Shown piece after piece: positions 9,351 through 14,251 of a DNA stretch of 64,000 nucleotides. The stretch's first letter is position 1. Each line of letters begins with the position of its first letter. The stretch lies in contig JAAYFQ010000160.1 in NCBI GenBank assembly GCA_012728165.1, forward strand, positions 1 to 64,000. Direction: 5' to 3'. Both the position numbers and the translations under genes were made by a program. The stretch is from Synergistaceae bacterium (GTDB taxonomy: Bacteria > Synergistota > Synergistia > Synergistales > Synergistaceae). The notes beneath the pieces are model-generated. The model was not told the DNA's origin and ran no database searches. It was given only the letters and a program-made list of their open reading frames with translations.

Positions 9351-9586
9351 TATACATGGATTTGGAAAAGATTTATGCAGAAAGAGATATCCCCAATAAG
9401 TATATACTTACTTTAGTCGTTGCTGCACGTGCCCGCCAGCTTAGCGAAAGAAAGGGCCCATTGCCTGGCTATGATGAAAAATTTATAACAAAGGCAGTCG
9501 AAGATGTTACAAACGGATGTGTAAAGTATAAGTTTGTTGATATTGCCGGCAAAAAGAAAACAGATGAGCCAGTGGAAGCAGAATAA
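9347..9586 (+). CDS. rpoZ: RNA polymerase omega subunit
   Basis: Small subunit that helps assemble RNA polymerase. The 79-residue protein contains NKYILTLVVAARARQLSE, the omega signature (canonical yxLv..aakRAR.l), and KAVEDVTNGCVKYK. It overlaps gmk by ATGA and coaBC by about 23 bp. Identification is supported by both sequence and its fixed place after gmk. Confidence 0.9.
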   Translation: MIYMDLEKIYAERDIPNKYILTLVVAARARQLSERKGPLPGYDEKFITKAVEDVTNGCVKYKFVDIAGKKKTDEPVEAE

Positions 9587-10781
9587 GAAGATATTATTTG
9601 GAATAAGCGGCGGAATCGCTGCTTATAAAGCGCCAGACATCTTGCATAGTTGGATAAAAGCAGGATGTGAGGTTGAGACCATACTGACAAAATCTGCAGA
9701 AGAATTTGTCAGTCCACTTGTGCTTGCAACTTTAAGTAAAAAACATATATGGTGCGAGGATGACTTTCTTTCAGCTGATAAAGGATGGAAGATACCCCAT
9801 ATCAGTCTAACTGAGTGGGCAGATATTTTTGTTATAGCTCCTTGCACAGCAAGCACGCTTAAAACATGTGCAGATGGAGAGTGTTCGACTCTATTAGGGG
9901 CAGCATTACTTGCTAACCGAAAGCCTTTGGTTCTTTTTCCTGCTATGAATCCCAACATGCTTTCACATACGGAGACGCAAGAGAATATTAAAAAGCTAAT
10001 TTCTAGAGGGTGCAAGGTTGTTGATCCTGACAGCGGATTGCTTGCATGTGGCTATGAAGGCAAAGGTCGTCTTCCTTCGAGTAATATTGTAAATGAGCAT
10101 ATCTGGAAGGAACTTTTTCCGAAGAAAGATTTGAGAGGTCTCCATGTAGTAGTTACCGCCGGGCCAACTCATGAATACATAGATCCTGTTCGTTATATTA
10201 GTAATCCGAGCAGCGGTAAAATGGGCTATGCCCTTGCAAAATATGCGTGGTACAGAGGAGCGGAAGTTACTTTAATTTCAGGACCAACTTCACTCATGCC
10301 GCCAGTAGGAATAAATTTTATAAGTGTTACAACCGCAGAAGAAATGTATAACGCCTGTATGGAAAATAATTCTACTGCAGATATTATCATTATGGCTGCA
10401 GCAGTCGGAGATTTTAAAGTTGAGAAGGAATTTTCTAATAAAATTAAACGTGAAGAAAATGCTCCTCTTGCTCTCCATCTTGTTCAGAATGAGGATATAT
10501 GCGCAAAGTTAGGAAAAATGAAGCCTGATGGACAAATACTGATAGGTTTTGCTGCAGAGACACAAAATGTTATGGAAAACGCTCAAAAAAAACTTGAGTC
10601 GAAAAATCTTGATATGATTGCAGCAAACAATGTGTTGGTTGACGGAGCTGGTTTTCAGTTTGATACTAACGTGCTATCGCTAATTATGAAGAATGGAAAA
10701 ATAGAAGAAATTTCAGGAACTAAAGATGATGTAGCAGATGCTCTTCTGGATTTTGTGGTTACGAAAAGACAAGGATTATAA
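9564..10781 (+). CDS. coaBC: Bifunctional phosphopantothenoylcysteine decarboxylase/synthetase
   Basis: Carries out two steps of coenzyme A synthesis. The N-terminal CoaC half binds FMN: GISGGIAAYK, then PAMNPNM (canonical PxMNxxM), and GLLACGYEGKGRLP with the active-site cysteine. The C-terminal CoaB half starts near residue 180 with VVVTAGPTHEYIDPVRYISN and contains AAAVGDFKV. The ATG at 9564 gives 405 residues and overlaps rpoZ by 23 bp; no strong ribosome-binding site is visible there. A TTG at 9534 is the other in-frame option. Confidence 0.94.
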   Translation: MSQWKQNKKILFGISGGIAAYKAPDILHSWIKAGCEVETILTKSAEEFVSPLVLATLSKKHIWCEDDFLSADKGWKIPHISLTEWADIFVIAPCTASTLKTCADGECSTLLGAALLANRKPLVLFPAMNPNMLSHTETQENIKKLISRGCKVVDPDSGLLACGYEGKGRLPSSNIVNEHIWKELFPKKDLRGLHVVVTAGPTHEYIDPVRYISNPSSGKMGYALAKYAWYRGAEVTLISGPTSLMPPVGINFISVTTAEEMYNACMENNSTADIIIMAAAVGDFKVEKEFSNKIKREENAPLALHLVQNEDICAKLGKMKPDGQILIGFAAETQNVMENAQKKLESKNLDMIAANNVLVDGAGFQFDTNVLSLIMKNGKIEEISGTKDDVADALLDFVVTKRQGL

Positions 10782-12590
10782 ATGAAACAAGTGTTTGTCT
10801 CAGTACCGGGTCCTTGGTGGACCCGGCTTTTATATTTACACGATACTCCTATAAAGTTGGGTGTGCGAGTGCTTGTCCCGCTAGGAAGAAGCACGAGAGT
10901 TGGATTAACTGTTGCTGCAGAAGGCATTCCGGTAGAGAATAACTCCATAAAATTAAAGCCTATAACGAAAATTATCGATTCTGTTCCGCCAATTCCTGAA
11001 GAATTGATGAAAACAATGGAATGGTTTTCAAACACATGGTTTTCCGGATTAGGCATAGCTTCAAAAGTTATGTTTCCCACCAAATTCCTTGATGGAGAAG
11101 AACTTTGTCCGTTGACTGAATATGAAAAAAATAATCCTGATAATTATCGCGTCAATTATATTTACGAAGAAAATGATGCAAAACGCTACGAAAGATATGC
11201 CGAAATAGCAAAATCTTCAAGTGCAGGCACTATGTTTTTATTTTCTGAAGCAGACTCAGCCAAAAAGTTTTGGAACTTGTTACCTTCGGGATTAAAAGAA
11301 GAAGGAATTATTTGGCCAACTGGTGCAACAAAACAATGGACACAGTGGAAAGAAGCAAGAAATGGTAATGTCAAATTTATAGTAGGTTCACAGTCTGCAG
11401 CGTTCGTACCCTTAAAAGGACTTTCCCGTATAATTATTGAAGATGAAAATAGTGGAGGATGGCTTACTCAGAAGAATCCTTGTTTTCATCATAGAAGTGT
11501 TTTGGCAGCTAGAGCAAAATTCTCTAATGCAGAACTTATTCTTGGTGGGCGAATCGCGTCATCGAAGGCATTTATGCAGAACTCTGAATGTGGAAAAGAA
11601 AAAAAAGATATACAAAAAAGACTTATTTTTGTTAATCTTCATGACTCGTCCAGTTTCACAGTTGATGCAGTAAAAGATTCTTTGCCGATAAGTAAACCAT
11701 TAATAAGGGAAACTTTAACTTGTCGTGAAAATAGTAAATGGGCTTTTTGGATTCTTGACCGCAAGGGGTATGCGGGAGAACTTTACTGCCGAGATTGTGG
11801 AGAGCCTCTTCGTTGCTCACATTGCGTTGGAGTTATGAGATGGGAAGGGAAACAAAAAAGACTTTCATGCCTTAGCTGCAAGCATCATATTCCAATTCCC
11901 GAAAAATGCCCCTCGTGCGGTGGACCATTTTTAGAAGGAGTACGCCCAGGATTAGAAGCTCTTACAGAACGTGCTTCGCTAATTTTGCGATATAAATATA
12001 AAGAGGTTTTGCTTTTTCAAAATGAGAGTGGCAAATTACCTTCCTGTAAGAGTTTAATAAAAGATTATCCTCGTGGGGCGTTAGTAGTTGGTACAAGAAA
12101 AATACTGGCTCTTACAGACGAACTTCCCACAGGAATGATAGGTTGGATAGATGCTGATGCTGAAGCCAGAATAACTGAGTATGATGCAAAGGCAAGGGCT
12201 TTTGCTCTATTATATGAATCATTTTGGCGTGGAATGGATCCAGAAAGGCGTAAGATAGTAATTCAGAGCCGTAGACCCGACAGAGGATGGCAAAAAGGCC
12301 TTACAAGAGGATGGAGTTACTTTTGGAAAACTGAACTTAAAGAGAGAAAAGAATGGAATCTCCCACCATACTCTCCCATGTTAAAAATGGTTATGCCTAA
12401 AGGAACAGGTATTGATTTTGCGAAATTGCTTGATAAAGAGAGTTTAGAGTATTGGGCTGCAGAGGAATCTTCAGATGAAATTTGGGTCAGAACGCGTAAA
12501 TTTAGTATTATAAAAAAATATTTAGCTCCATATTTTGATATAAAAAATACGAGACGCGGTTTTCCAGTAACCAGATTATATTTAGATTAA
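10782..12590 (+). CDS. priA: PriA-family primosomal protein N', apparently without helicase motifs
   Basis: Homologue of the replication-restart protein PriA, 602 residues against 730-800 in typical members. Residues 1-105 match the 3'-DNA-binding domain. Eight zinc-binding cysteines are intact (336, 339, 345, 348, 363, 366, 376, 379). The helicase core is degenerate: no GxTGSGKT Walker A is found anywhere. The DEEH box is replaced by EDEN (220-223), and the motif VI block QVAGRAGR reads ESFWRGMD. IVGSQSAAF (200-208) still aligns to the GTRSAxF motif. It begins directly after the coaBC stop. It probably binds forks and recruits partners but does not unwind DNA. Confidence 0.88.
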   Translation: MKQVFVSVPGPWWTRLLYLHDTPIKLGVRVLVPLGRSTRVGLTVAAEGIPVENNSIKLKPITKIIDSVPPIPEELMKTMEWFSNTWFSGLGIASKVMFPTKFLDGEELCPLTEYEKNNPDNYRVNYIYEENDAKRYERYAEIAKSSSAGTMFLFSEADSAKKFWNLLPSGLKEEGIIWPTGATKQWTQWKEARNGNVKFIVGSQSAAFVPLKGLSRIIIEDENSGGWLTQKNPCFHHRSVLAARAKFSNAELILGGRIASSKAFMQNSECGKEKKDIQKRLIFVNLHDSSSFTVDAVKDSLPISKPLIRETLTCRENSKWAFWILDRKGYAGELYCRDCGEPLRCSHCVGVMRWEGKQKRLSCLSCKHHIPIPEKCPSCGGPFLEGVRPGLEALTERASLILRYKYKEVLLFQNESGKLPSCKSLIKDYPRGALVVGTRKILALTDELPTGMIGWIDADAEARITEYDAKARAFALLYESFWRGMDPERRKIVIQSRRPDRGWQKGLTRGWSYFWKTELKERKEWNLPPYSPMLKMVMPKGTGIDFAKLLDKESLEYWAAEESSDEIWVRTRKFSIIKKYLAPYFDIKNTRRGFPVTRLYLD

Positions 12591-12609: not shown

Positions 12610-12879
12610 ATGAAGGCTATAGTAACGGTTCTTGGTAAAGATAAGGTTGGAATAATGGCCAAAGTCTGCGTATATCTTGCCGAAAAAAATGTAAACATTT
12701 TAGACGTGTCGCAGACGATTATACAAGACTATTTTGATATGATAATGATTGTGGATGTATCAAAGCTTACTTGTTCTTTTGGCGATTTTACTGACGAGTT
12801 AGCTGAGTTGGGTAAGCAAATAGGATTAATGATAAAGGCACAGCGAGAAGAAATTTTTAAAAATATGTATAGAGTATAG
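12610..12879 (+). CDS. ACT-domain protein (UPF0237)
   Basis: An 89-residue single ACT domain: MKAIVTVLGKDKVGIMAKV is the first strand and ligand loop, and NVNILDVSQTI the second strand. ACT domains usually bind amino acids or similar small molecules. AGGAGGT precedes the ATG. It lies 13 bp ahead of the DUF711 gene; this pairing is common in anaerobes and suggests the ACT protein senses a ligand for its partner. The ligand is unknown. Confidence 0.9.
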   Translation: MKAIVTVLGKDKVGIMAKVCVYLAEKNVNILDVSQTIIQDYFDMIMIVDVSKLTCSFGDFTDELAELGKQIGLMIKAQREEIFKNMYRV

Positions 12880-12892
12880 AGGGTAATAATTG

Positions 12893-14251
12893 ATGATAAG
12901 CATGTCTGAAGCACGAAAAACAAATGAGATGATTTTAGAAAATAATCTTGATGTCCGTACAATAACAATGGGAATCAATATAATGGATTGTGCAGATTCA
13001 AAGGTAGAAGTATTTTGCGAAAAAGTCTATGATAAAATTACAAAAAAAGCAGAAAATTTGGTTAAGACAGGAGACGAAATTGCACGAGAATTTGGTATTC
13101 CAATAGTTAACAAGCGTATTTCAATCACTCCTGTGGCAATAGCCGCTTCAGCCTGTAAAACTGACAGTTATGTAGAAATAGCAAAAATGCTTGATAAAGC
13201 TGCTGCTGAAGTCGGAATAAATTTTATAGGTGGTTTTTCTGCTCTTGTACAAAAAGGCATCACAAAATCGGACCAAATTCTAATTGACTCCATTCCGGAA
13301 GCATTGTCTGTAACAGAACGCGTATGCTCATCTATTAATGTGGGTTCTACACGTTCAGGCATAGACATGAACGCTGTCAAACAGATGGGTGCCCTTATTA
13401 AAAAAACTGCATATCTGTCACGAGAACAGAATTCTCTCGGATGTGCGAAGTTTGTGGTTTTTTGTAATGCAGTAGAAGATAATCCTTTTATGGCAGGTGC
13501 TTTTCACGGTCTCGGAGAAGGCGATTGTGCTATAAATGTAGGTATTAGCGGCCCAGGTGTTGTCAGAAAAGCACTTGAAGAAATTCATGATGCAGATTTT
13601 GAAGTTCTTTGCGAAACAATAAAGAAAACTGCTTTTAAAATTACACGTGCTGGACAGCTAGTTGCAAAAGAAGCATCAAAAAGGCTCGGAGTACCGTTTG
13701 GCATAATAGACCTTTCTCTTGCTCCAACTCCTGTAATAGGAGATAGTGTTGCTCAGATACTTGAGACAATGGGGCTTGAATATGTAGGAGCACCCGGAAC
13801 AACAGCCGCTCTTGCAATGCTTAATGACAATGTAAAAAAAGGCGGAGTAATGGCTTCTTCTTACGTTGGAGGGTTAAGTGGTGCTTTTATTCCAGTAAGT
13901 GAAGATTATGGAATGATTAGAGCGGTTGAAGCGAAAGCCCTTACATTAGAAAAACTAGAAGCAATGACTTGTGTGTGTTCTGTGGGTCTTGATATGATTG
14001 CTATTCCAGGAGACACATCCGAAAGCACTATCTCAGGTATTATTGCGGATGAAATGGCTATAGGTATGATAAATAATAAAACAACTGCTGTTCGTTTGAT
14101 TCCTGTATATGGTAAATCAGCAGGAGAGACAGTTACATTTGGAGGTCTTTTGGGTTATGCTCCGATAATGCCAGTTAATAATTTTGACTGCACTGTTTTT
14201 GTAAATCGTGGAGGAAGAATTCCGCCTCCAATTCATAGTTTTAAAAATTAA
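12893..14251 (+). CDS. DUF711 family protein (UPF0210)
   Basis: A 452-residue protein of the UPF0210/DUF711 family, structurally related to glycyl-radical-type folds but of unknown activity. Family blocks visible are [24 protein letters not shown] and [17 protein letters not shown]. The C-terminal [21 protein letters not shown] is another. The start is set at the ATG at 12893, 9 bases after AGGG. A TTG immediately upstream and an ATG at 12902 are alternatives. It is co-transcribed with the ACT gene. No substrate can be proposed. Confidence 0.9.

Follow-up and report, generated by a model that had tools for sequence, protein, structure and literature searches.

This study analyzed a 64,000-nucleotide stretch of DNA (the window) from a bacterium whose genome belongs to Synergistota, and the results indicate that one of its open reading frames is most likely a genuine PriA that has been turned into an ATP-independent, fork-binding scaffold. 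The product (602 aa; 10782..12590, forward strand) was assigned as a helicase-dead PriA orthologue because its best family matches were PriA models and its structural model matched PriA structures best. Both NF004066 (E 2e-47, 161.9 bits) and TIGR00595 (E 3e-41) matched the protein under their curated cut-offs. The TIGR00595 score of 141.7 bits lay below the equivalog cut-off of 230.35 bits, which was exceeded in 4 of 185 Synergistota genomes, all from families f11 and f12. The 3'-DNA-binding domain (3'BD; residues 7-99; 10800..11078, forward strand) matched Pfam PF17764 above the cut-off (E 4.5e-13), and the two best phmmer alignments with solved PriA chains spanned window residues 6-92 and 184-532.

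The gene neighborhood was analyzed as well. The priA frame starts with an ATG on the base directly after the stop codon of coaBC (9564..10781, forward strand; PF04127 and PF02441), a gene that immediately precedes priA in 55 of the 58 related loci. The gene order is yicC-remA-gmk-rpoZ-coaBC-priA, with priA last and the five upstream genes confirmed by Pfam; a neighborhood of this type is common for priA in bacteria. Directly after priA, at 12610-14251, lie the genes for an ACT-domain protein (89 aa) and then for a protein of the DUF711 family (PF05167, 453 aa, E 7e-198). The 602-residue frame, which a sequence-only reading had described as a PriA without helicase motifs, is real.

We aligned 59 Synergistota PriAs from 53 genera and 12 families, hand-picked at one per genome from the 173 genomes matched, with two references: E. 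coli PriA (annotated record) and a motif-bearing Melioribacter PriA (L012). Partial frames (L010, L015/L088, L020, and L092), a locus cut at a contig end (L009), extra loci of represented genomes, and near relatives in genera g4, g5, g6, g7, g9, and g11 were excluded. The absence of Walker A was confirmed, the window reading YEENDAKRYERY where E. coli has AGVTGSGKTEVY. R135 (11184..11186, forward strand) stands where E. coli PriA has its Walker A lysine, K230, and arginine occupies this position in 59/59 aligned proteins, a feature that the sequence-only reading had overlooked. A second, separate alignment likewise set R135 opposite the Walker A lysine of Melioribacter L012.

Motif II, which is DEEH at residues 320-323 of E. 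coli PriA, survives in the window as the relic EDEN at residues 220-223 (11439..11450, forward strand), as had been read from the letters. Across the 59 proteins, the first position of this motif is D or E, the second is D or E with one G, and the third (window E222) is always E, with the histidine gone from every protein. Motif III reads SAT in E. coli and GRI in the window, and its threonine is gone in 59/59. The E. coli motif VI, QVAGRAGR, is replaced by YESFWRG (12213..12233, forward strand). The earlier claim that this motif lacks its arginines was right in that the motif is gone, but R483 remains and aligns with the first arginine of the E. coli motif, the second falling at a gap. QxxGRxGR was absent from 59/59; at its place, WESxWRG occurred in 40 of the 54 order members and ESxWRG in 45, the window included, and the five members from families f11 and f12 differ again. 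None of the 59 proteins carried DEEH, QxxGRxGR, or Walker A at its place, and all of them retained R427. A loose G-x4-GK[ST] pattern appeared in one protein, L065, where motif III would lie, and [AG]-x4-GK[ST] in two (L065 and L067); these lay at wrong places and were judged to be chance. The loss that had been described for a single genome is therefore real, yet the proposed survey of related genomes revealed it in 59/59 aligned Synergistota PriAs and not as a peculiarity of one. Because the motif losses recur in all of these proteins, they are not attributable to chance.

The zinc domain (11787..11918, forward strand) contains eight cysteines in the window (C336, C339, C345, C348, C363, C366, C376, and C379), and the set is complete in 59/59. 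Together with the PF17764 match, this finding bears out the earlier statement that the DNA-binding domain and the zinc cysteines are kept. From the end of the 3'BD to the position of the Walker A lysine, the window PriA has a short linker (11079..11183, forward strand) in place of a winged-helix domain. This interval comprises 35 residues in the window, 128 in E. coli, 207 in Melioribacter, and 29-50 in the 59 Synergistota PriAs. We take the winged-helix region of E. coli PriA to be residues 106-175; only 9-13 of these 70 positions are occupied in each of the 59 proteins. Judged from the alignment, the winged-helix domain is deleted in 59/59, a cause that had been missed when the short length of the protein was noted.

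The C-terminal domain (12369..12590, forward strand, stop codon included) is shortened to 73 residues; E. coli PriA has 99 here and Melioribacter PriA 102. In none of the 54 order members did we find a counterpart of the E. coli RWRWQ ([YFW]RW[QR]) near the end, and of the 5 proteins outside the order, one (L083) had it. Because this domain is short and the counterpart is mostly gone, the contacts made there may differ. The exception, L083 (genome G005), from the outlying family f12, had the top TIGR00595 score (350.9 bits) and keeps YYRWR near its C-terminus, yet has neither Walker A nor the winged helix; it looks to be the least eroded PriA among those examined.

Structure prediction, which the sequence-only reading had suggested, pointed to the same fold. 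An AlphaFold2 model built from 8 sequences was of moderate confidence (mean pLDDT 69.1, pTM 0.58), with a well-modelled stretch at residues 151-220 (pLDDT 85-89 per ten-residue block). PriA chains were its best structural matches (Z 24.9-25.5 over 478-500 residues, rmsd 4.7-5.4), and the next family was Mfd (Z 13.2). According to this model, both RecA-like lobes are retained in the window PriA. The structural matches included 6DCR, an E. coli PriA built without the winged helix, and this engineered form resembles the natural state of the Synergistota PriA.

We then searched for another, working PriA. A degenerate DNA pattern for the PriA-type Walker A (GVTGxGKTEVY, at most 2 mismatches) had no match in any of the 185 Synergistota genomes; the controls were recovered with 0 mismatches in E. 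coli and 1 in Melioribacter. The PriA profile at E<=1e-20 matched 167 of the 185 genomes, each once except for G101, a genome with 9% contamination in which two PriA-like copies start at profile positions 17 and 27. Among the profile matches listed, none starts before profile position 12. Relatives of the window protein at E<=0.001 were present in 173/185 genomes. Of the 18 genomes without a profile match at E<=1e-20, four (G055, G056, G081, and G177) reach a completeness of 90% or more with contamination of 5% or less. Window-protein matches were obtained in G055 (E 4e-4), G056 (2.5e-41, in four pieces), and G081 (1.6e-25). Neither a window-protein match nor a PriA was found in G177 (96% complete) or in G143 (97% complete, 7% contaminated), where only short hits inside other helicase-like frames were seen; these two cases could be assembly gaps or real absence.

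In the source assembly (208 contigs, rated 95.67% complete), no second PriA was found. The other TIGR00595 matches in this genome were short (profile positions 1-111, 1-178, 275-375, and 287-382) and lay inside other helicase frames. Of these frames, C150 (698 aa) was a full-length RecG match and C181 (1041 aa) was presumably Mfd-like from its size and matched profile range; C9 (681 aa) was a further one. A genome contig search yielded seven related loci, six in metagenome-assembled Synergistaceae and one in Melioribacter. A profile scan of IMG/VR revealed no relative of the window PriA, and none of the records that tblastn returned (72 from plasmids, 30 from phages) reached 60% identity; the matches listed (40 plasmid, 20 phage) were all below 29%.

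To examine selection, we applied the Nei-Gojobori count to 23 loci. Among the 25 most similar pairs, 3 were saturated and 1 was near-identical (dN/dS 0.44, on almost no changes), leaving 21 usable pairs. The dN/dS was 0.06-0.14 in 17 of these, 0.155 in one further pair, and 0.22-0.29 in three genus g9 pairs, several of the low values resting on a dS near 2, close to saturation. The window priA compared with its same-genus relative L015 gave a pN of 0.18 and a pS of 0.68 over 465 codons; a hand calculation that applied the same correction put dN/dS at about 0.11. These substitution counts argue that the Synergistota priA is under purifying selection. The genus g9 loci with raised dN/dS (L036, L038, and L039) also have open frames that extend far upstream (714-822 codons) compared with most genera.

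The possibility that the gene is a decaying pseudogene draws on the many lost motifs and the higher dN/dS in genus g9, but it is highly improbable: the frame is open, a relative is present in 173/185 genomes, the eight cysteines persist in 59/59, and the dN/dS is low in 17 of the 21 usable pairs. None of the window-protein matches listed has an internal stop. The PriA profile match in G060 crosses one TAA, and in the two-contig genome G117 (C1:1285584-1286776) priA falls into two separate frames of 468 and 309 aa, perhaps through a frameshift or a sequencing error. That an assembly or reading-frame error hides the motor has a negligible probability. The 208 contigs of the source genome would leave some scope for such an error, but it is refuted by the recurrence of the same architecture across other assemblies, single-contig ones included. 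Moreover, because coaBC ends where the frame begins, there is no room for the longer reading with a Walker A that the sequence-only reading had considered.

Helicase-independent restart, which the sequence-only reading had proposed, is the best reading of these findings because a PriA that has lost its catalytic residues keeps the 3'BD and the zinc domain. The loss of the motor and of one DNA-binding domain throughout the phylum, in a gene under selection, suggests that restart can operate there with a motorless platform protein. The 3'BD and zinc domain would bind branched DNA at stalled or recombined forks, and the motorless PriA may recruit DnaB without ATP hydrolysis, as with Deinococcus PriA. 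Further along this pathway, DciA might act as the loader and RecG as the fork remodeller, and RecG or another helicase might carry out any lagging-strand unwinding. Only by analogy may fork binding, DnaB binding, and the DciA partnership be ascribed to the Synergistota PriA. DciA was above the Pfam cut-off in each of the 16 genomes chosen; in the source genome it scored 28.4 bits, the cut-off being 24. A near full-length RecG match was likewise present in 16/16; it passed the strict equivalog threshold in 9 genomes but not in the source genome. PF01695, used to search for a DnaC/DnaI-type loader, also matched in 16/16 genomes, as it did in most control genomes; by frame size and place, many of these matches look like IS21-type ATPases or DnaA, although a DnaC/DnaI homologue may be among them.

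Two other functional readings were weighed against helicase-independent restart. The protein may have left replication restart for a new job, such as DnaB loading at oriC with DciA or fork sensing; the loss of the motor and winged helix and the new ESxWRG block at the motif VI place in 45/54 of the order are compatible with such a change. We consider it unlikely, however, since the protein retains its 3'BD, zinc domain, and fold, the gene retains its place, and no Walker A-bearing PriA was found to take over restart. Still less probable is that ATP continues to be bound through an altered site formed with R135 and the invariant E222. The invariance of these two positions in 59/59 implies that the site is under constraint, but the P-loop has lost its glycines and motif II its histidine, motif III is gone, and the K230R substitution leaves E. 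coli PriA with neither ATPase nor helicase activity (PMC4504706).

The phylogenetic placement bears on when the motor was lost. NCBI taxonomy unites Synergistota, Deinococcota, and Thermotogota within the kingdom Thermotogati, and the three have been described as the DST clade (PMC12421855). It is conceivable, though doubtful, that the motor was lost once in an ancestor of Deinococcota and Synergistota through the lysine-to-arginine change, and that the winged helix and the other motifs were later lost in Synergistota, the arginine remaining in a structural role. Two independent changes are plausible because arginine easily replaces lysine. In addition, D. radiodurans was counted among the species without PriA in an older survey (PMC1193525); this illustrates the extent to which these PriAs have diverged and also speaks against a shared loss. 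If the shared loss were true, restart in this deep branch would have managed with no PriA helicase ever since.

The Synergistota thus provide a second phylum without PriA helicase motifs and, in also being without the winged helix, a natural minimal PriA. The remaining parts, namely the 3'BD, the zinc domain, and the silent lobes, would then be the real requirement of restart, and whether a scaffold with DnaB and DciA suffices for replisome reloading becomes directly testable. The protein also raises the question of one shared ancient loss versus repeated losses. Our search was confined to the open literature; among the papers it listed, none concerned PriA in Synergistota by its title, and an earlier note may exist elsewhere.

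Compared with the E. coli and Klebsiella PriA structures (PDB 4NL4, 6DGD, 8FAK, and 6DCR), the window protein has the 3'BD, two RecA-like lobes, and the eight-cysteine zinc domain in the same order, and its modelled overall fold is similar (Z about 25); however, it is without the helicase motifs and the winged helix, and its C-terminal domain is shorter. The general PriA model NF004066 fits the protein better (161.9 bits) than any of the PRK14873 models does (60.9 bits at best); we take PRK14873 to represent the actinobacterial form. The putative actinobacterial PriA has been described as "smaller and very divergent" (PMC1193525), a description that the shortened and divergent Synergistota protein resembles. 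The sequence-only reading had named Actinobacteria as the precedent; PriA is divergent there, but the tested precedent is D. radiodurans instead. The PriA of D. radiodurans is devoid of both ATPase and helicase activity but binds single-stranded and fork DNA and forms a complex with DnaB, and the D. radiodurans genome has no clear priB or dnaT (PMC4504706). According to the same source, PriA helicase motifs are well conserved apart from Deinococcus-Thermus, whose members are notable exceptions with a lysine-to-arginine change within the GKT of Walker A; Synergistota are not mentioned there. As Deinococcus PriA is described there, the two share a phylum-wide degradation of Walker A and Walker B, including the change of lysine to arginine. 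Relative to that description, the Synergistota proteins are without the P-loop glycines, have motif VI replaced, and have the winged helix deleted. The Synergistota PriA is therefore a more reduced variant of the helicase-dead PriA published for Deinococcus.
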